A DNA stretch of 64,000 nucleotides from Bacteroidales bacterium (GTDB lineage Bacteria; Bacteroidota; Bacteroidia; Bacteroidales; GCA-2748055): the NCBI GenBank assembly GCA_021738565.1, contig JAIPBT010000010.1:1-64000 (forward strand), in the 5' to 3' direction. The notes under the pieces were generated by a model that worked only from the letters and a program-made list of their open reading frames with translations, did not search any database and was not told the origin of the DNA. Positions 5,351 through 31,836 of the stretch are shown here, piece after piece. The position numbers and the translations under genes were made by a program. The stretch's first letter is position 1. Every line of letters starts with the position of its first letter.

Positions 5351-6103
5351 ATGCATTTCAACAAATTCGGAGGATTTATTATTGTGCTGGTATTTTGTCA
5401 GTCCATGGTGTTTTCCCAGGGACCGGTCACCGGCTATTCCGGACAAGTCGTAAAAGCAAGGAAAGCATACCTTTTAAATCTTCACGATTCGCTGGCCGGT
5501 ACCGACAGGATCCTGGTGAGCGGAGAAGAGTACTTCCCCCACCAGCGCGGAGCCGCTAATCATCCTTTTTTTATGACCGAATCCTGGCTGGAAGGTGATG
5601 TGTTCATTGAAAACAATGTGTATGAGAACTGCCTGCTCAGGTATGACCTCTTCCTGGATCAGTTATTGTTCCTGCATATATCTGGCGGAGCCACGGTAAT
5701 TGCACTAAATCGAGGATATGTAAATAAGTTCAAACTGGAAAATAAGGTTTTTGAATATAAATACGAATCCTCCGGTGAATCAAAAAACATCCTGAAAGAA
5801 GGTTATTACCAGCTCATTTACAGGGGAAAGCATGAATTGCTTGTAAAATATCTAAAGAACAGGGTAATAAATGGTGGTTTCAGACAGGATGAATTTCAGC
5901 TAAGAAAAGAGTTTTACCTCTTAATTAACGGAACATATCATAAGGTAAGAAATGACCGCCAGCTAAGAAAAGCAATGAACTCTTTTGAAAAAGAATTGCG
6001 CCAATACATGAAGCAGAACAATATTCATGTGCGCACATCTGCCCCGGAACAAATCGCAACAGTGCTCATTTTTCACGAAGGATTAACCGCAGGTGAAAGA
6101 TGA
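5351..6103 (+). CDS. Secreted protein of unknown function, first gene of receptor module 1
   Basis: A 250-residue protein that I do not recognise. It has a signal peptide (about residues 1-22, ending near MVFSQG), so it should be exported. The rest is mixed alpha/beta with a C-terminal charged helix (residues about 200-225). It is a diverged paralogue of the protein at 28517-29299: both have a central stretch with the pattern L-R-(Y/F)-D-x-F-x-(D/N)-Q-L-(L/I), preceded by an acidic segment. Its stop overlaps the start of the receptor gene by 4 bp (ATGA), which implies translational coupling and a joint role with the receptor. Role unknown. Confidence 0.8.
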   Translation: MHFNKFGGFIIVLVFCQSMVFSQGPVTGYSGQVVKARKAYLLNLHDSLAGTDRILVSGEEYFPHQRGAANHPFFMTESWLEGDVFIENNVYENCLLRYDLFLDQLLFLHISGGATVIALNRGYVNKFKLENKVFEYKYESSGESKNILKEGYYQLIYRGKHELLVKYLKNRVINGGFRQDEFQLRKEFYLLINGTYHKVRNDRQLRKAMNSFEKELRQYMKQNNIHVRTSAPEQIATVLIFHEGLTAGER

Positions 6104-8853
6104 GAAAGTATTTGCTGAATATCTTCATACTGCTGTCAATGTCATTCTCCATGAAGGCTCAAGAGGAAGATCTCTGCCTTGAGTACAATTATGATGGACT
6201 TGAATTTGCTGCCTTCGCTGATTCCATTGCAAAATATGAAGGTGCCAGGATTTTCTTTAAAGAAGAATGGTTTGAAAGGGTTATCGTCATTCAGGATGAA
6301 AATGATTGCAGTCTGAAAAACCTGCTTGAAAATACCCTTTCCCCGAATGGCATATTTTATATAACTGATGCTGCCGGCAATATTATTCTTACCGGGAAGG
6401 AAGAGATATTAACTGAGCTTACACCGTCATTCTTCGGAGCAACCCAACAGACCAGTGAGGTTATTTTTGAAGATGAAATCAAGGAAGAAGATACAGGAGA
6501 AATACTGCAGACAAATCTTGCATCCAAAAGCATCGTCATTGGGAATCCGGGAAACAGGGTCTATGACAGAAAAGTAAATTTCTCCGGATCAATCAGGAAT
6601 GCAAACTCAGGAGAACCCCTGGCTGGAGTCGTAGTCTACTCTGAAAACGAAGAAGTTGGAGCCATTACAGACAACAACGGGTATTTTATCATGTCACTTC
6701 CATCGGGACAACACAACATATCCCTGCGCTGCATCGGCATGGAAAATCAGTCTGTTAACCTGACCCTGTACGAATCCGGAACTGCCAACATTGAAATGAA
6801 AGAGGAGATCACTGCATTGAGGGGTGTAATCGTAATAGCCGATAAAGGGAAAAATGTTTCCGGAATGCAAATCGGCTTGAATAAGGTCAGCATGGAACTG
6901 ATGAAGCAGATCCCCGCCATGATGGGCGAAACTGACGTTCTTAAAACTGCCATTCTTCTCCCCGGTGTACAAACAGTTGGTGAGGGAGCGGCAGGATTCA
7001 ATGTCAGGGGCGGCTCAACGGACCAGAATCTCATTCTGCTCAATTCGGCACCCGTGTTCAACTCCTCACATTTCTTTGGTTTCTTTTCTGCTTTCAATCC
7101 TGATATCATAAAGGAGTTCGAACTTTATAAAAGCGGAATACCTGCAGAATTTGGTGGCAGGGTCTCTTCAGTTTTTGAAATTACCACAAAATCAGGAAAC
7201 ACAAAAAATATATCAGGTTCAGGCGGAGTAAGCCCGGTCACAGCAAGGGTAATGCTGGAAGGTCCTACTGTAAGGGATAAAGGCTCCTTCCTCCTGGGGG
7301 CAAGAAGCACATTCTCAGATTTGCTGTTAAAACAATTCAAGGTCGCTTCGCTTCAGAGAAGCAGTGCCTCTTTTTACGATGCCAATCTTATCATCAATCA
7401 TAAGATAAATGACAAAAATGACCTTTCTCTTTCCCTTTACAGAAGCGCCGATGAATTCAGCCTGAGCTCGGATACACTTTATAGCTATAACAATATGAGC
7501 GGTTCAGCGGGATGGAAGTATAAAATCTCTGATAAACTGATCGGTGAGACAAAGTTGATTTACAGTCACTATGACTACAATGTAACTTCAACTGAGAATG
7601 AAATCAATGCCTTTACCATTGATTATGCCCTTGATTACATTGAAGGCAGGACCGACTTCAGCTATTTTCTTTCAAATGAGCACAGGCTGAAATTCGGATT
7701 GAACTCGATCTGGTATTTACTTAATCCGGGAAGCAGGACACCAAAAGGTGAGCCCAGTCTGGTTGCTCCTTTTTACCTTGAAAAGGAGCAGGCCAATGAA
7801 ATAGCAGCTTACATAAGTGATGAATACACCATCAGTAACAACCTCTCAATTTCAGCAGGTATCAGGGTCTCATTTTACCGGTTTCTTGGTCCGAAAACGG
7901 TGAATTATTATGATGAGGGCCCAAGAGAGCCTTACAATCTAATTGACAGTGTTTTGGAGAATGGAACAATTCAATCTTACGGCGGACCGGAAGCCAGACT
8001 TTCCATAAGATACAGGGTAGACAGGGTAAGTTCACTGAAGCTAAGTTACAACAGGATGCGACAGAACCTGCATATGCTGTCAAATACGACGGCAATCTCG
8101 CCTACCGATATATGGAAACTGAGCGATTCCTATGTCAGACCCCAGGTAGGAGACCAGCTTGCTATTGGCTACTACAGGGACTTCAGTTCAAATACAATCG
8201 AAACCTCCCTGGAACTCTATTACAAAAACATCAGGGATATCATAGAATACAAAGGGGGCGCATCACTCATTCTAAATCCACTTATCGAAACGGACCTGAT
8301 CAATGGAAACGGACAGGCATATGGTGTTGAACTACTGGTTAAAAAGAAATACGGAAGACTCAATGGACTGATGAGTTACACCTTTTCCAGAACGCTTATA
8401 AAAGTATCCGGGGAATACCCGGAAGAAACCATTAACCGTGGATCTTATTATCCTGCCAATTATGACAAACCTCATGACCTGACATGTGTTGCCTCATACC
8501 GGTTCAACAGGAGGTTCAGCATATCAACCAACTTGACCTACTCCACAGGACGACCCATAACCTTTCCTGTTGCAAAATACAGTTATCTTAACAATGAATA
8601 TGTACATTATTCATTCAGAAATGAGTACCATGTTCCGGACTATTTCAGGTGGGACCTGTCACTCAATTTAGAAGGAAATCTGAAAATTAAAAAATTGGCC
8701 CATAGTTCATGGTCCCTTTCGGTTTACAATGTAACAGGAAGAAACAATGTATATTCCATATTCTTTGTTAACCGTTCGGGAAAGATACAGGGATACAAAC
8801 TATCCATATTCTCAGAACCTATACCAACAATCACCTATTCATTCCGCTTTTAA
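6100..8853 (+). CDS. STN-domain TonB-dependent receptor, module 1
   Basis: A 917-residue outer-membrane receptor. In order it shows a signal peptide (1-20), an STN (secretin/TonB short N-terminal) domain (about 25-105), a linker, a carboxypeptidase-regulatory-like domain (about 155-240, starting VNFSGSIRNANSGEPLAGVV), a plug domain (about 265-370, with GGSTDQNLILLNSAPVFNSS) and a beta-barrel ending TYSFRF. The STN domain usually contacts an anti-sigma factor in FecA-type receptors, yet no FecR or ECF sigma gene lies near. It is clearly paralogous to the receptor at 25511-28294 (shared plug text: FFGFFSAFN). Overlaps both neighbours, so it belongs to a tightly coupled four-gene operon. Confidence 0.92.
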   Translation: MRKYLLNIFILLSMSFSMKAQEEDLCLEYNYDGLEFAAFADSIAKYEGARIFFKEEWFERVIVIQDENDCSLKNLLENTLSPNGIFYITDAAGNIILTGKEEILTELTPSFFGATQQTSEVIFEDEIKEEDTGEILQTNLASKSIVIGNPGNRVYDRKVNFSGSIRNANSGEPLAGVVVYSENEEVGAITDNNGYFIMSLPSGQHNISLRCIGMENQSVNLTLYESGTANIEMKEEITALRGVIVIADKGKNVSGMQIGLNKVSMELMKQIPAMMGETDVLKTAILLPGVQTVGEGAAGFNVRGGSTDQNLILLNSAPVFNSSHFFGFFSAFNPDIIKEFELYKSGIPAEFGGRVSSVFEITTKSGNTKNISGSGGVSPVTARVMLEGPTVRDKGSFLLGARSTFSDLLLKQFKVASLQRSSASFYDANLIINHKINDKNDLSLSLYRSADEFSLSSDTLYSYNNMSGSAGWKYKISDKLIGETKLIYSHYDYNVTSTENEINAFTIDYALDYIEGRTDFSYFLSNEHRLKFGLNSIWYLLNPGSRTPKGEPSLVAPFYLEKEQANEIAAYISDEYTISNNLSISAGIRVSFYRFLGPKTVNYYDEGPREPYNLIDSVLENGTIQSYGGPEARLSIRYRVDRVSSLKLSYNRMRQNLHMLSNTTAISPTDIWKLSDSYVRPQVGDQLAIGYYRDFSSNTIETSLELYYKNIRDIIEYKGGASLILNPLIETDLINGNGQAYGVELLVKKKYGRLNGLMSYTFSRTLIKVSGEYPEETINRGSYYPANYDKPHDLTCVASYRFNRRFSISTNLTYSTGRPITFPVAKYSYLNNEYVHYSFRNEYHVPDYFRWDLSLNLEGNLKIKKLAHSSWSLSVYNVTGRNNVYSIFFVNRSGKIQGYKLSIFSEPIPTITYSFRF

Positions 8854-10004
8854 TGAAGATCTCCAATACATATAGAAAATGGTGTTTTATGGTGGCATTA
8901 TTGATCCTGATCCCAGGATGCATTGAACCTTACAATCCTGACATATCAAGGTATGAGGATATCCTGGTGGTTGATGGTACATTTACCAACATTGAAGAGG
9001 ACCAATATCTTATACTTTCAAGAACTTATGGGTATTATGAGTCGGAAAACAAAATGGAGACCGGGGCGGTGGTTGTTATAAGAAATAATGAGGGGATTAC
9101 CGGAACCTATACTGAGATCGATGATGGTGTTTATTTGCTTCAAAAAGGGACATTTTCAGGCGAAACGGGCAAAAGTTACCAGATCATCATTGAAACATCT
9201 GATGGGAAGCATTACGAGTCGGGGTATGAATTGCTGAAGAAGCCTGTTGAAATTGATTCGGTATTTTATGACATTGAACTGGACAAAGAAACCCTTTCAG
9301 GTGAAAAATATGACGGACTGCAGATCTATCTCACTTCAGGGGATGAAAATAATGAAACCCATTATTATCGCTGGGATTGGGAAGAAACATGGGAATTTAT
9401 GGTGCCCTTTGTAAAACCGGGATTCCAGAACAGGATAAAATGCTGGAGAACAATTCATTCTACAAATATCACCATTGCCAGTACCTTGAACCTGAAAGAA
9501 GACCTCATTTACAAGCAAAAACTAAACTTCGTTACATCAAGAAATTCCAAATTATCACGCGTCTATTCCATTCTTGTGAGACAATATTCGCTTACGCCGG
9601 AGGCTTTTGATTTCTGGAGGAAACTGGAATTGTCGAATGAACATACAGGATCACTATTCGATCCTCCCCCAACACCGGTTACAGGAAACATTGAGAACAC
9701 TGAGGACCCTTATGAACCTGTACTGGGTTATTTCCAGGTATCCGGAGTCAGCGAAAAAAGGATATTCATAAAACGTTCAGTTCTGCCGGCTGTATTTGAT
9801 CTTACCACCGGCAATGAACACTGCAGCAGTCTTGAAGTTATGGGAGAAGGCATTGAAGAGGTACAGGACGGATGGTACCTGCTGCAGCGTTATACGTGGA
9901 TGGATACCATATGGACCTCTCTTTCCAGTCATATTGACTGTTATGACTGTACACAAAGGGGAGAAAATGTACAACCTGAATATTGGATAGATTCAGATGA
10001 ATAG
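8853..10004 (+). CDS. DUF4249-family lipoprotein, module 1
   Basis: A 383-residue lipoprotein. The N-terminus has a lipoprotein signal with Cys in LIPGCIEP (about residue 23), then a beta-rich immunoglobulin-like N-terminal part with the family feature LVVDGTFTN. This matches the DUF4249 family of Bacteroidota, whose genes are usually found beside TonB-dependent receptors; the biochemical role is not established. Its start overlaps the receptor stop by one base (TAATG) and its stop overlaps the next start by 8 bp. It is paralogous to the protein at 24352-25524. By analogy with SusD it may be a surface partner of the receptor, but that is inference. Confidence 0.8.
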   Translation: MKISNTYRKWCFMVALLILIPGCIEPYNPDISRYEDILVVDGTFTNIEEDQYLILSRTYGYYESENKMETGAVVVIRNNEGITGTYTEIDDGVYLLQKGTFSGETGKSYQIIIETSDGKHYESGYELLKKPVEIDSVFYDIELDKETLSGEKYDGLQIYLTSGDENNETHYYRWDWEETWEFMVPFVKPGFQNRIKCWRTIHSTNITIASTLNLKEDLIYKQKLNFVTSRNSKLSRVYSILVRQYSLTPEAFDFWRKLELSNEHTGSLFDPPPTPVTGNIENTEDPYEPVLGYFQVSGVSEKRIFIKRSVLPAVFDLTTGNEHCSSLEVMGEGIEEVQDGWYLLQRYTWMDTIWTSLSSHIDCYDCTQRGENVQPEYWIDSDE

Positions 10005-24351: not shown

Positions 24352-25524
24352 TTAATTCCTGGGCCAAAAGTCAGGCGGGTCAGGCTCACTATTTTTATAT
24401 TCCCGACAATCCAGACAATGAAGTGCTACTTCACCAAGATATACCTTTCCATCCTCTGGCCAGGTAGCCCTTGAAAGGTAACGGGGCAGAAGATCTCTTG
24501 ATATATAATACAGGGAACCCAATTCAAATTTTGGAAAGCAAAAAATCTTTTCTACGATTTCCAGTCCTTCCACATTTTCAATGAAGATTCTTTGCTGACG
24601 TGCACCAGAGATAGAAAAATACCCGATGACATATTCATCTTCATCGCTTATATTGCATATATTGGAAGGTGCCAGCACGGGCTGCTTGTCGAAAATTCCC
24701 GCAGCGTTGCTATTGTTTTTCATAGCATTCCAGTAAGTATACGCGCCTTTAGTCAAGGTATACTGCCTTACCAGGAGGCTGTATCCATGCAAGAGTTGCT
24801 GCGTTTCGTTTGATACGAAATGCAGCGGATATCGTCTGTAGACACCACCTGAGACATTCAAGGTAGATTGTGTATATATCTCCCTTATAGGATTGGTGAT
24901 CCAACATTGACGGTCGGAAAGTTCATCGGGAAGTGGTTTTAACTTTCGGTCCACATCATATATATAACCTTGGTAATTTGGATTTTGGAATTCATAGGTT
25001 TCAATGAGTTCCCACCTGTTGTAAAGACTTATTTCATGATCGAAAGAATAATCCAGGTAAAACCTGATACCGGATAAGGTATCTCCAGGCGTTGAGCTTA
25101 CCATTTTTTCCAGGTGATAATAGATCGAATCAATATCCATTGGTCGTAAGAGGGTCTCGGGATCCGAAAGATACTCATTGCCATCAGGAGTGATGATACT
25201 TAATTCATATTGCATGCCGTACACAATAAATGAGCGATCAGGCTTTGCAGAATAAATACCAGGACCAGTTTCAATAAAATCCATAAACTCCCCGTCTTCT
25301 CTTTTTACCTGAATAAAGCATCCGGATTCCGGTTTGTACTCAGCTCCCCGGAGGTTTCCTGATCTGGAAATTCTGATTTCCTGGCTTTGATCAAGGTCTG
25401 TGAGGTGCGCATGTATTACCAGATTGTCAGCGAAATCCTTTTGATTTTCTGGATAATATTCTTCAACACATGCCTTTGGCAGAAAAATCCAGAAGCAAAT
25501 AATGGTGGTTTTAATTGCTTTCAT
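24352..25524 (-). CDS. DUF4249-family lipoprotein, module 2
   Basis: A 390-residue lipoprotein paralogous to 8853-10004. The lipobox is LPKAC (Cys about residue 19), followed by LVIHAHLTDLDQSQEIRISR, matching LVVDGTFTNIEEDQYLILSR of the module 1 copy. Both share a later block with a conserved Y-x-x-L-V-R-Q-Y-(S/T)-L-T segment (about residue 255) and a C-terminal cysteine pair (CLDC here, CYDC there). The start overlaps the receptor gene by 14 bp, and the MG2 gene starts 16 bp after its stop. Role unknown; a surface partner of the receptor is inferred from context. Confidence 0.8.
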   Translation of the reverse strand: MKAIKTTIICFWIFLPKACVEEYYPENQKDFADNLVIHAHLTDLDQSQEIRISRSGNLRGAEYKPESGCFIQVKREDGEFMDFIETGPGIYSAKPDRSFIVYGMQYELSIITPDGNEYLSDPETLLRPMDIDSIYYHLEKMVSSTPGDTLSGIRFYLDYSFDHEISLYNRWELIETYEFQNPNYQGYIYDVDRKLKPLPDELSDRQCWITNPIREIYTQSTLNVSGGVYRRYPLHFVSNETQQLLHGYSLLVRQYTLTKGAYTYWNAMKNNSNAAGIFDKQPVLAPSNICNISDEDEYVIGYFSISGARQQRIFIENVEGLEIVEKIFCFPKFELGSLYYISRDLLPRYLSRATWPEDGKVYLGEVALHCLDCREYKNSEPDPPDFWPRN

Positions 25525-28294
25525 AGTTCCCCAGTTTTGCGTTCCAAGTCAGCGTTATTAATGGTACGCCGATCACCGAAAAAGAGTAACCATGGATAAA
25601 ATATTCTCCTGGCTCAAAATAAATGGATTGAGGGTTTTTTCTTCCGAGCAAATTATAAACATTTAAACTCCATGAGCTGTGAAGTGGTTTTTCAGCCTTC
25701 AAATTTCCTTCCAGGGTCAAGGACAGATCGATTCTGAAGTAATCCGGAACCCGAAATTGATTCCTGGATTGATAGTCGATATATGCAAAATCATCAACAA
25801 AATAAATAGATGATGGAAATGAAACAGGTCTTCCTTTCATATATACTAAGTTTGAGCCAAGGGATAGCCGCCTGTTAACCTTGTAATTGGCCACAAGATT
25901 AAGAACATGAGGTCTGTCATAGTTTGAGGGGTAGGGTTTTCCTTCATTGATGGACCCAAGCGAAGAGGTGCCAGATACTTCCATCATTGACCTTGAGATT
26001 GTATAGCTGATCCATCCATTTAATCTACCGCTCCCTTTCTCCGCCAATAATTCGAGACCATATGCGGCTAAATGCCCCTGTAGTATCTCTGTTTCCGTAA
26101 AGGATGTGTTAATGAAATCAGCGCCATCCTTGTAATCCACAATGTTGTCCGAACTTTTGTAGTATATCTCTATGGAAGAGGATATACCGGAAGAAGGAAA
26201 GATATGATACACTCCTCCACTATATTGGTAGCTAAGCGGTGCCTTGATATGAGCATCAGTTAATTTCCACTGGTCGGTCGGAGATATCGCAACGGTATTG
26301 CTTAGCATGAGAAGATACTGTCGCATTTGATTAAAAGCAAGTTTGAAAGAGGTGTTTTCTCCGGACTTGAAATTTACAGCAGACCTGATTTCTGGTCCTG
26401 AATAGTGTGCGATGTTTTTGAAAGAACCGTATTCTGTTATCGACAGGGCAGTATACTCTTCTTTTGGGTATCCATCCCAATATTCCCTGACCCGGTTAGG
26501 CCCAAGAAAACTGTAGTAGCTGTAACGTAATCCGGCATATAATGAGAGCCACTTAAAAATATTAATATTATCACTTATAAATATACCGGCTTCAACACCC
26601 TGTTCAGTCCCCAGATCCATTGGGGATCGCAGGGATACATCGCCATATGGCTGAACGACACCTCTGTTGAGGTGGTAATAGATGAGATTTGCACCATATT
26701 CCACCCGGTGATTCAGGGCTGGGATCCATCGATATTCATTGGATAATTCACTGTGAGTTATGTTGTAATTATGCGTATATGCCTGGGAGAGTTGCCTGGT
26801 ATCATTGAAACTGAAATTGTAATTGGAAACGGCAGCACTTAGGTTTGACGTAATAGAAGAAGACAGCTGTCTGTTCCAATTAATCGAGCCTCCTCGATTG
26901 GTATATTCGTAATTACTCAGATCACTGTACATAAACCTGTCATAACTTTGGTAGTAAAAAGCTGAAAGTGAGTTATTTTCATTTATACTCATGTTCAACG
27001 ACCCCGAAAAATCATTAAATAGTGCATCACTGTCCCGTATCAGTGGGTCTTCTATCTTCTCAAGTATCCAGTCGGAATAGGTTGACCTGGCATTGATCAA
27101 AAATGAAGCTTGCTCCCTGATAATGGGGCCCTCAGCTGTTACATTCGTTGAAATTGGGCTGATGCTTGCATTGCCAGTGAATTTCCTGTTGTTTCCTTTT
27201 CGTGTGGAAATATCAAACACAGATGCCAGCCTTCCTCCGTAATTTGCTGGGATATTGCCTTTATATATTGCATAATCCCTGATAATGGATGAATTGAACG
27301 CTGAGAAAAATCCAAATAAATGAGATGTATTATAGATCGGCACCCGGTTTATATAAAAAATATTCTGATCCACGCTGCTTCCACGTACATTAACACCGGA
27401 AGAAGCTTCGCCGGCACTTGTAATTCCCGGCAGTAATTTTGCAATTTTAATAACATCACTTTCGCCCATGAATAAAGGAATCTGCTTTACTGATTTAAGG
27501 GAAATACGCATGACTCCAATATCGGTACTATTGATTTCCCGGTAATGTCTGGCCTGTATCTGTACCTCATCAATGGCAATCATCGAAGAAGGCATCTCAA
27601 TAGTAAACTTACCATCGGAATATATAATCATTTGTTTGTTCACCTCTTCTTTGCCAATATAATTGAATTGAACAGTATAGGTGCCTGGCGATACAGCCAT
27701 AATTACCACACCTGCATTATCACTGACATATCCTTTACCAGTCTCCTTAATATACATGGTGGCACCGGTAACGGGATCTCCACTTTCAAGCTCAGTGATA
27801 TACCCCATGACCCTTGCGGGTTTGTTGAGAATTCTTTGTTCCGGTTTCCCAACGGAAATGGTCTGTATGATTTGCCTTGGCCGCGTTCCCTGGATAAAAC
27901 TTTGATTAGGCTTCATGCCCAAATCATTTACACCACTATTTATCACCACTTTGGAGGTCCTTATACTTGCAGCAATATCCTTCTCAATATGCCTTTGCGG
28001 GAGCAAAAAGATCCCCCTCCCCGGAATGATATCATAGACAAGTCCGGTGCCCTTAATAGCCTGTTCCAGCACATAGGATAAGGTTGCAGAATCTTCATCG
28101 ATGGACAGTTGATGTGCTTCTACCCACTCATCTTTATAGAAAATTCGCTGACCCGTCTGTTGTTCAATTTTCTCTACAAAAACTTCAAAAGGACTTTCGG
28201 TAAGGTGAATAGCAAGCTTATCCTGAACATGTTGTGCCCGGACATAACTGGCAGTCAGGATAAAACATGCTATTAACAGTGGTCTGCTTTCCAT
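25511..28294 (-). CDS. STN-domain TonB-dependent receptor, module 2
   Basis: A 927-residue outer-membrane receptor with signal peptide (1-20), STN domain (about 22-105), carboxypeptidase-regulatory-like domain (about 160-245, GYITELESGDPVTGATMYIK), plug (about 270-375, SSVDQNIFYINRVPIYNTSH) and a beta-barrel. It shares architecture and much plug and barrel sequence with 6100-8853, for example the block MRQ-L-x-MLSNT-AISPTD in the barrel. No sigma/anti-sigma gene is adjacent. The stop overlaps the DUF4249 gene by 14 bp. Unlike module 1, a 222-bp gap separates it from the upstream small-protein gene. Confidence 0.92.
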   Translation of the reverse strand: MESRPLLIACFILTASYVRAQHVQDKLAIHLTESPFEVFVEKIEQQTGQRIFYKDEWVEAHQLSIDEDSATLSYVLEQAIKGTGLVYDIIPGRGIFLLPQRHIEKDIAASIRTSKVVINSGVNDLGMKPNQSFIQGTRPRQIIQTISVGKPEQRILNKPARVMGYITELESGDPVTGATMYIKETGKGYVSDNAGVVIMAVSPGTYTVQFNYIGKEEVNKQMIIYSDGKFTIEMPSSMIAIDEVQIQARHYREINSTDIGVMRISLKSVKQIPLFMGESDVIKIAKLLPGITSAGEASSGVNVRGSSVDQNIFYINRVPIYNTSHLFGFFSAFNSSIIRDYAIYKGNIPANYGGRLASVFDISTRKGNNRKFTGNASISPISTNVTAEGPIIREQASFLINARSTYSDWILEKIEDPLIRDSDALFNDFSGSLNMSINENNSLSAFYYQSYDRFMYSDLSNYEYTNRGGSINWNRQLSSSITSNLSAAVSNYNFSFNDTRQLSQAYTHNYNITHSELSNEYRWIPALNHRVEYGANLIYYHLNRGVVQPYGDVSLRSPMDLGTEQGVEAGIFISDNINIFKWLSLYAGLRYSYYSFLGPNRVREYWDGYPKEEYTALSITEYGSFKNIAHYSGPEIRSAVNFKSGENTSFKLAFNQMRQYLLMLSNTVAISPTDQWKLTDAHIKAPLSYQYSGGVYHIFPSSGISSSIEIYYKSSDNIVDYKDGADFINTSFTETEILQGHLAAYGLELLAEKGSGRLNGWISYTISRSMMEVSGTSSLGSINEGKPYPSNYDRPHVLNLVANYKVNRRLSLGSNLVYMKGRPVSFPSSIYFVDDFAYIDYQSRNQFRVPDYFRIDLSLTLEGNLKAEKPLHSSWSLNVYNLLGRKNPQSIYFEPGEYFIHGYSFSVIGVPLITLTWNAKLGNYESN

Positions 28295-29511: not shown

Positions 29512-31365
29512 TTACCTGCCGAAATCGACAGCAAATCCTCCAATCATATGAATACCCGGCATCGTATATCCATAAACCGTCTGGTAGTCCTGGTTAAGCA
29601 GATTTTTCCCTGCAATAAAAATCTCCAGGTTATCCATAAAACGGTAACTTATCCTGGAATCAGCGATCAGGTAGGATTCCCTGATGTCGTTCACCGCGTC
29701 AGTCATGTCGATCACTGTGTACAGGCCGGCAACTGATTTAATACTGGCGGAAAACCTGAAATCCCCTAACAGGTATGTGGCCCCTGTATACAACTGGTGC
29801 TCTGGTGCAAAATATAACTTTGTATCCGCATTCAGATAACTGTAGCTCATATTGAGCCGAAAATTATCAAATGGCTGGAAATTGCCTTCCAGTTCTATCC
29901 CCCAATTGGTAAATTCTCCCCCGTTTGTCCTGATCATGGGGGGCGGCCCCTCGGGATTGGGTTGCATAACGATAAGGTTGCTGCCATCGATAAGAAAAAC
30001 AGACGTATTGACGATTCCCCACAATCCCACACGCTGTCCAACTGACAGTTCATAGTTCCATAACCGCTCAGGGCCTAACTGAGCGTTGGGAGCAAAGAGG
30101 TACATCTCCATGATGGTAGGACTTCTGAATCCTTTTGATACAATGCCTTTTACTGTAGTCCCTTTAAGAGGTTGTGCTGAGATACCGAACTGCGGAACGA
30201 TCTCAGCGCCAAAATTGGTGTGGTATTCATACCTTGCTCCGGCAGAAAGATTGATAATGTCCCCGAAATGTTGCTCAGCCATTACGTAACCAGCTGTTTC
30301 GTTGACTGTTATAAATGTATCTGCATAAAAACCGAAGGATCCTTCTCCTCCATAATTTTTAATATCCATACCGGTTGTAACTGATGCCCCGTTCCAAATG
30401 TCAACAGACTGAAACAGATTCACTCCCATGTTGACATCCTGTGATACCCATCCATCTGAAAAATTGTGGTTGCCGGAATTGTAGAATGCATACAGTCCCC
30501 CGCGAGTTCTGTCATAATCATTTTTTAGAGAAAGGGTGAGCATATTCCTGGTGATGTCGCCTGAAAAAGTAATCGCATCTAAATATTCAGATCCGGGATC
30601 CATGAAAGAGTAATCGGCCCTGGTAAACCCTCCGCGAACCGTCCACGATTGATTGAACCGGTACCCTGCATAGGCATGCAAATTTGTTATTTTGAATTCA
30701 CTGCTGTCACGGTGACCGTCCGTTGAATTGTTGTTCAGACTGATTCCCGCGAAAAATTTATCGTTGCTGTAACCGGCTGACAATCCTGTTTTCAGGGTAT
30801 TAAAAGAACCGTAGGAGACATGTCCTCCTACGTTGAAACCATCACTTTTCTTATTCCTGGATATGACATTGATCACACCTCCCATGGCATTGGAACCGTA
30901 AAGCAATGATGCCGGTCCCCGTATCACCTCAACACGATCCACATTGGAGGACATGTGAAAATTGGGAAGTGGATGACCAAAAACTCCCATATACTGTGGC
31001 TGACCGTCAACCAGCATAAGCACCCTGGAATTCGGGGATCCGCCAACACCCCGGATGGTTACCTGGCCGGAAGATTCATTTCCAAGTGCATATCCTGCCA
31101 CGCCTATCTCACTCACAAAAACACCTGGTGTGATTCTGGCAACAATAGGGAGTATGTTGGTCTCTTCATGACTTTTAATTTCTTCGCTTCCCACCACCGA
31201 GATAGTCAGCGGTGCCCTTGTCCTTGCCACCTCTATCCTATTGCCGGAGATTACAACTTCTTCAATATTTATTGTATCCTCAATGGTGCCTGCATTGACT
31301 GAGCTGAAGAAAGGAGATAAAATTATAACCAGTAAAGTTTTGTGCATTTTTTGTACCATGATCAT
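29512..31365 (-). CDS. TonB-dependent receptor, probable nickel/metal-complex importer
   Basis: A 617-residue outer-membrane receptor of the BtuB/FepA-like size class, without STN or carboxypeptidase-regulatory domains. It has a signal peptide (about 1-25), a TonB-box region (IEEVVISGNRIEVARTRAP), a plug (about 50-165; VLMLVDGQPQYMG and RVEVIRGPASLLYGSNAMGG) and a C-terminal barrel ending GFAVDFGR. It starts 31 bp after the stop of nikR on the same strand, so the two are almost certainly co-transcribed. In Helicobacter, NikR controls TonB-dependent nickel receptors; by that analogy I infer import of nickel or a nickel chelate. Substrate not proven by sequence. Confidence 0.88.
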   Translation of the reverse strand: MIMVQKMHKTLLVIILSPFFSSVNAGTIEDTINIEEVVISGNRIEVARTRAPLTISVVGSEEIKSHEETNILPIVARITPGVFVSEIGVAGYALGNESSGQVTIRGVGGSPNSRVLMLVDGQPQYMGVFGHPLPNFHMSSNVDRVEVIRGPASLLYGSNAMGGVINVISRNKKSDGFNVGGHVSYGSFNTLKTGLSAGYSNDKFFAGISLNNNSTDGHRDSSEFKITNLHAYAGYRFNQSWTVRGGFTRADYSFMDPGSEYLDAITFSGDITRNMLTLSLKNDYDRTRGGLYAFYNSGNHNFSDGWVSQDVNMGVNLFQSVDIWNGASVTTGMDIKNYGGEGSFGFYADTFITVNETAGYVMAEQHFGDIINLSAGARYEYHTNFGAEIVPQFGISAQPLKGTTVKGIVSKGFRSPTIMEMYLFAPNAQLGPERLWNYELSVGQRVGLWGIVNTSVFLIDGSNLIVMQPNPEGPPPMIRTNGGEFTNWGIELEGNFQPFDNFRLNMSYSYLNADTKLYFAPEHQLYTGATYLLGDFRFSASIKSVAGLYTVIDMTDAVNDIRESYLIADSRISYRFMDNLEIFIAGKNLLNQDYQTVYGYTMPGIHMIGGFAVDFGR

Positions 31366-31396
31366 TCTGTTAATTGTGATTTATAGAATTGAGTTC

Positions 31397-31801
31397 CTAT
31401 TCATCCGTGCCGCTCATAACCAGTTCAACGTTTTTGATTCCTTTCAAACCTTTGTATTTATTAAGAAGTTTGATCAGTTTGTGTGCCTTCCCTCTCACCG
31501 TGATCACTTCAAGGCAGTTGTGCTGATCAAGATGTATATGCTGTCCCGAAAGTATCAGGCAGTTGTAATTGTGCTGCAATGCATTTACTTCCTTATGAAG
31601 TTCAAGTTTGCTGTGGTCGTACACAACTACAAGGGCTCCAACCACAACTTCATCATCGGTCCATTTGTGCTCCACAATGTTTTTCTTAACAAGGTACCCG
31701 ATCGCACGGGACCTGTTCGGGAAGTTTTCCCTTTTCACCATCTGATCCAGTTCGGACATCACATCTTCCTCCAGGCTCACACCGAAACGTTTCATTGTCA
31801 T
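31397..31801 (-). CDS. nikR: Nickel-responsive transcriptional regulator NikR
   Basis: A 134-residue ribbon-helix-helix repressor with a C-terminal ACT-like nickel domain. The DNA-binding part is at 1-45 (MKRFGVSLEEDVMSELDQM, then NRSRAIGYLV). The square-planar nickel site is complete: His77, His88, His90 and Cys96, with the same spacing as His76/His87/His89/Cys95 in E. coli NikR. I start at the ATG at 31801; an ATG two codons later and an upstream in-frame ATG at 31840 are alternatives, but the longer form would read through the putative operator. The gene precedes a TonB-dependent receptor by 31 bp, so nickel-dependent control of that receptor and of nikR itself is likely. Confidence 0.95.
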   Translation of the reverse strand: MTMKRFGVSLEEDVMSELDQMVKRENFPNRSRAIGYLVKKNIVEHKWTDDEVVVGALVVVYDHSKLELHKEVNALQHNYNCLILSGQHIHLDQHNCLEVITVRGKAHKLIKLLNKYKGLKGIKNVELVMSGTDE

Positions 31802-31806
31802 GATAA

Positions 31807-31836
31807 CACGTATTATTAAAACGTGCCACGAATATA
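31807..31836 (-). promoter_or_regulatory. Candidate NikR operator and -7 box upstream of nikR
   Basis: A perfect inverted repeat CACGT-N9-ACGTG (31807-31811 and 31821-31825) lies 5 bp upstream of the nikR ATG. Directly behind it on the minus strand is TATATTCG (31829-31836), one mismatch from the Bacteroidota -7 consensus TAnnTTTG. A dyad overlapping the expected transcription start suits a repressor site. It differs from the E. coli NikR operator (GTATGA-N16-TCATAC), so the assignment rests on position and symmetry only. Confidence 0.5.

Follow-up and report, generated by a model that had tools for sequence, protein, structure and literature searches.

TonB-dependent outer-membrane receptors repressed by NikR and nickel have been described in Helicobacter pylori, namely FrpB4 (HP1512) and FecA3 (HP1400), as the preliminary description of the DNA studied here had noted for Helicobacter (PMC11247825). 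Urease and NiFe hydrogenase are given as the nickel users of Helicobacter (PMC5140060). In Caldithrix abyssi, loci composed of nikR, nikMNQO and a TonB receptor gene with a shared NikR-like motif have been predicted (PMC5317091), and for deltaproteobacteria the NikR consensus GTGTTAC-N13/14-GTAACAC was reported, with nikMNQO-type transporters and hydrogenase as targets and with no TonB receptor in the site table of that study (PMC545781). An earlier survey noted 10 organisms with transporters specific for nickel and without any known nickel protein (PMC2667541). In the literature searched, mostly titles and the openings of abstracts, nothing describing an operon of nikR and a TonB receptor gene was found for the Bacteroidales.

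The locus analyzed here consists of nikR and a TonB-dependent receptor gene (Table 1) and lies in the window, i.e., the whole 64-kb stretch of DNA under study, which belongs to a Bacteroidales genome of 3.98 Mb and 98.5% completeness (G000). The coordinates agree with the preliminary description, which had placed nikR 31 bp ahead of the receptor gene on the same strand, and a search of this gap for a terminator-like site found none. The locus resembles FrpB4 and FecA3 in that a TonB receptor appears to be under NikR control, here judged from operator and gene order, but differs from them in that nikR and receptor form a gene pair (compared by description, not by sequence; PMC11247825). With C. 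abyssi it shares the presence of nikR, a TonB receptor and a NikR-like motif at one locus, whereas the Caldithrix loci contain nikMNQO homologs and G000 has no CbiM, again compared by description rather than sequence (PMC5317091). With the deltaproteobacterial regulon it shares the operator consensus (PMC545781). The kind of system is already known, from Helicobacter and as a prediction from Caldithrix, and is met here in a little-described group; it recurs within the order and among named Bacteroidota.

Table 1. Features of the nikR-receptor locus (positions in the window).
Feature	Position	Strand	Remarks
-7-type promoter element TATATTCG	31829..31836	minus	TAnnTTTG with one mismatch; last base is the operator's first base
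Putative NikR operator GTGGCAC-N13-GTGTTAT	31803..31829	minus	one base before the nikR ATG at 31801
nikR, nickel-responsive repressor	31397..31801	minus	ATG at 31801, 134 aa; His77/His88/His90/Cys96
nikR-receptor gap, 31 bp	31366..31396	minus	without terminator-like site
TonB-dependent outer-membrane receptor, BtuB-like fold	29512..31365	minus	617 aa

The likely start of nikR, read from the sequence, is the ATG at 31801 (MTMKRF...), and profile searches were run with 31397-31804, which is one codon longer than this ORF. The product passes Pfam NikR_C (85.4 bits, cut-off 22; E 3e-24) and lies above the cut-offs of NCBIfam NF003381 (124.9 bits, cut-off 105) and PRK02967 (86.9 bits, cut-off 83), but below that of the equivalog model TIGR02793 (75.5 bits, cut-off 175.45); its N-terminal part scores 19.5 bits against the ribbon-helix-helix model Pfam RHH_1, for which the cut-off is 20.5. 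All four ligands of the nickel site are present, as had been claimed, and are His77/His88/His90/Cys96 in the numbering from MTMKRF; the same residues become H75/H86/H88/C94 when counted from MKRF. It is the only NikR in G000.

Upstream of nikR, a palindrome can be recognized by eye across the order, and a matrix built from it surpasses the 99% level obtained with shuffles at 36 of the 61 nikR upstream regions, with 34 of these 36 sites located 0-7 bp before the assumed ATG (in the window the distance is 7, or 1 with the start at the ATG at 31801). Counted over 100 nikR genes the operator is found at 53, compared with 28 of 4000 random 75-mers. With a held-out matrix, which was trained on 33 sites with the window and its genus-mate excluded, the window's site ranks first on each strand of the window by a small margin, namely 14.0 against a next best of 13.2 on the plus strand, and 11.1 against 10.3, at a threshold of 10.9, on the minus strand, which is that of nikR; given this narrow margin the operator of the window counts as weak, and that of the genus-mate scores 21. 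The consensus of the order's nikR genes equals the deltaproteobacterial NikR signal as given in PMC545781. Across the genome the exact N13 pattern has six matches, one of which is that of nikR, against three for the reversed control, and another of the six (L095) lies about 620 bp ahead of the nearest listed ORF on the plus strand. The motif TAnnTTTG, which we take to be the Bacteroidetes -7 promoter element, occurs with at most one mismatch and ends on the first base of the operator in 29 of the 34 operator-bearing nikR upstream regions, against a background rate of about 1.7% of 8-mers. This overlap of operator and putative promoter would fit repression through blocked initiation.

In the order, NikR_C matches were obtained in 71 of 295 genomes, with E-values under 1e-10 in 67, and 61 of the 73 matching places, the window included, were read with wide flanks (eight good and four weak ones were left out). 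At 31 of these 61 loci a receptor of the window's cluster follows nikR directly on the same strand, with 25 of the 31 receptors matching that of the window at over 300 bits and the other six being distant (100 bits or less, or missed by that search); at L082 the receptor lies one gene further downstream. Further same-strand neighbors of nikR include a Peripla_BP_2/FecCD/ATPase transporter, CbiM/CbiQ, FmdE proteins, as well as LarC accompanied by NAD_synthase-like and AIRC proteins, the latter two presumably LarE and LarB. A further neighboring permease barely reaches the DsbD_2 cut-off (25.0 vs. 24.9) and contains HTLLGPDH; it presumably resembles UreH/NicO carriers. Some neighbors, by Pfam and NCBIfam, are unrelated to nickel (porin, tRNA synthetase, AraC, EamA and redoxin). 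FmdE proteins recur beside nikR and the receptor at L059:5458-6930, L080:3649-5085 (by cluster only) and L082:8122-9477, and the one at L059 is fused to a nucleoside-hydrolase-like domain.

When the nearest 80 named relatives of the receptor are taken as the starting point, a set that shares about seven contigs with the survey as judged by their length, nikR lies directly upstream in 39 and is missing in 37, and four loci are at contig edges. One of the 37 (L145) has DNA coding for the C-terminus of a NikR immediately ahead of its receptor gene. A rapid tree built from 98 receptors (LG+G4, with SH-aLRT as the sole support measure) places the window's receptor with L107 (99) and L105 (100), and the presence of nikR requires 17 changes on this tree vs. 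a shuffled mean of 31.3. The most telling case for control of the receptor by NikR appears to be L105, a sister MAG whose receptor is 57% identical to that of the window and has the same Dpp7-type peptidase neighbor. Its receptor locus lacks nikR, for which the 113 bp between the peptidase and receptor genes leave no room, and operator and promoter element stand directly before the receptor gene. Of the 41 relatives for which the ORF search gave no nikR, nine have an operator-matrix match near the receptor start; besides L145 these include L119 and L115, which seem well placed, and L172, L183 and L148, which seem less so. Several relatives without nikR, from Bacteroides, Parabacteroides and their kin (L152, L153, L158, L160-L162, L166, L169, L170, L174, L175 and L177), share neighbors labeled by eye as an ECF-S component, a DUF362 protein, a polyferredoxin and a phosphoribosyltransferase; no NCBIfam model matched the ECF-S-like protein, and the DUF362-like one matched below cut-off only.

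The receptor itself matches Pfam Plug (2e-21) and TonB_dep_Rec_b-barrel (2e-34), and its AlphaFold2 model (pLDDT 79.2, pTM 0.81) has a barrel of 22 strands by manual count on the DSSP line. The closest solved fold, and by sequence also the nearest solved relative, is Escherichia coli BtuB, with a TM-score of 0.80-0.82 by query length at 20-21% identity. BtuB is likewise the best NCBIfam profile, but the scores remain far under the cut-offs of the equivalog TIGR01779 (116.9 bits, cut-off 599.7) and of PRK10641 (103.1 bits, cut-off 836), and the siderophore-receptor cut-offs among the NCBIfam matches listed are missed by far as well. No cobalamin riboswitch was detected at gathering level in the window, in which tRNAs were the only matches, nor at six own-genome paralog loci of the receptor, the best paralog being matched at 7e-17 over the N-terminal part only. 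Membership of the BtuB family was rejected on these grounds; the receptor is BtuB-like in fold, yet outside the family, and the grouping with cobalamin or siderophore receptors, which the preliminary description had named as part of a refutation, was not seen in these searches. Three residues, H131, H300 and D310, are invariant in all 98 receptors, D304 is kept in 96 and H218 in 77, and in BtuB, unlike in the receptor, the residues aligned to H131 and H300 are not His; residues 134-136 of the model, which adjoin H131, have a pLDDT under 50. The same residues are present in 16 relatives without nikR whose neighbors look by eye like ECF-S, DUF362 and polyferredoxin types, so they mark the subfamily rather than nickel.

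The absence of genes for a nickel ABC transporter, a urease or a hydrogenase from the neighborhood, as stated in the preliminary description, holds for the 38 ORFs of the window that were run against Pfam. A known nickel user in G000 was rejected at the level of the whole genome, as NiFe hydrogenase, urease, LarC, HypD and CooS each gave 0 matches, which sets G000 apart from Helicobacter with its urease and NiFe hydrogenase (PMC5140060). An inner-membrane nickel carrier was rejected likewise for CbiM and the NikR-linked permease of lar operons (both 0); this marker set excludes SodN, LarA, glyoxalase I, NiCoT/NicO, NikABCDE and unlinked FecCD transporters. The genus-mate (G223) gave nothing for NiFe hydrogenase, LarC, HypD, the lar-linked permease or CooS. 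In the order, HypD or LarC is present in 56 of 67 genomes with NikR vs. 64 of 228 without (p = 4e-16, kinship ignored); G000 and G223 belong to the 11 NikR genomes with neither, as does G190 (88% complete), which has a NiFe hydrogenase match. Either the nickel user of G000 is of an untried or novel kind, or the cargo of the receptor is not nickel.

We propose, with a probability of roughly 0.7, that nikR and the receptor gene form a nickel-repressed operon for uptake across the outer membrane. Comparison among related loci supports the gene order, the operator, its overlap with the promoter and the intact sensor site, and control of the receptor by NikR is thus well supported; beyond this we infer nickel repression, co-transcription, nickel as the cargo and a further step into the cytoplasm. 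Both genes would be transcribed together from a single promoter, the -7 element of which ends on the operator. With sufficient nickel in the cytoplasm, Ni-NikR would sit on the operator across the start of transcription and silence nikR and the receptor gene alike, and when nickel is short the receptor would be made and, with TonB as the driver, would let nickel, either as such or as a chelate, enter the periplasm. Passage through the inner membrane would depend on genes elsewhere or on sharing another transporter. Of the "nickel-import operon" named in the preliminary description, the operon under NikR control is borne out by gene order, operator and L105, and the nickel cargo stays presumptive, none of the nickel markers searched having been found in the genome; given the sensor and its company, nickel would nevertheless be the most economical reading. 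The proposal also draws on the same-strand neighbors of nikR such as CbiM/CbiQ, the FecCD-type transporter and LarC, and on the co-occurrence of NikR with HypD or LarC in the order. Counting against it are the missing nickel markers, the narrow clearance of the threshold by the window's operator on the nikR strand and the occurrence of the conserved histidines in relatives that lack nikR.

That the two genes are chance neighbors and NikR controls itself only seems highly improbable. This reading could draw on the 41 of 80 near relatives without an adjacent nikR (by ORF search, four of them at contig edges), a figure that also counts against a nickel-repressed operon, and on sigma-70-type promoter-like sites, which are no commoner than in shuffles, but it is contradicted by the same-strand adjacency at 31 of 61 loci and by NikR-type operators standing immediately ahead of receptor genes that lack an adjacent nikR, most clearly at L105. 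An unlikely but more serious alternative is that NikR controls the receptor and the cargo is something other than nickel, such as cobalt, a corrinoid or another metal chelate. BtuB being both the nearest fold and the best family profile would suit this, as would the lack of all nickel users and carriers searched for in G000 and the retention of H131 and H300 in relatives without nikR. The distance to the BtuB cut-offs, the lack of a cobalamin riboswitch in the window and at the paralog loci and of CbiM in the genome, and the company of nikR elsewhere in the order, where it adjoins CbiM, LarC and similar genes, argue against it.

The reading as a nickel-repressed operon also has to accommodate the NikR homologs that lack the nickel site, since many do so, also beside such receptors. 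Of 100 NikR sequences, 52 have the HHHC site, 22 are of a Q/K/R-Q-Y/F/L-C type, which is found in Parabacteroides, Coprobacter and others, and 26 have other replacements; the operator is present in 36 of the 52, none of the 22 and 17 of the 26, so that 17 of the 48 homologs without a complete site retain it. A de novo search for 4-mer dyads returned A/T-rich words only, the HHHC group included, and no operator for the Q-type group, and as the operator was missed even in the HHHC group, the method is unable to reveal it. Homologs with replaced ligands have probably lost nickel sensing through the classical site. The Q-type genes L035-L043, L111, L121, L126, L127, L129, L132, L134, L135, L138, L146, L155, L168 and L180 all stand before receptor genes, and of the nine Q-type NikRs that the order survey contributed, eight come from genomes in which NiFe hydrogenase is strongly matched. 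Two further homologs, from the window's own family (L033:8825-9226 and L034:8640-9041), head a lar operon with LarC, two further lar-type genes and a permease; their ligands are replaced (RRTS and LRTS), and the operator is retained one base before the ATG.

As a tentative extension, which we regard as rather doubtful, the genus of the window may possess an intact nickel-sensing import unit without the users and carriers searched for, which would call for an unrecognized nickel enzyme and inner-membrane route, and the NikRs that keep the operator without the site may answer to a signal other than nickel. A different metal could play this part or, at L033 and L034 with their lar operons, perhaps a product of nickel-pincer cofactor synthesis. 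The nikR-receptor pair offers, for the Bacteroidota, an operator that can be tested and a family of receptors for nickel uptake across the outer membrane, and it draws attention to genomes in which nickel seems to be sensed and imported in the absence of a known nickel enzyme. Apart from this pair, the window contains a TonB-type receptor paired with a DUF4249 protein at two separate places, 24352-28294 and 6100-10004, on opposite strands.
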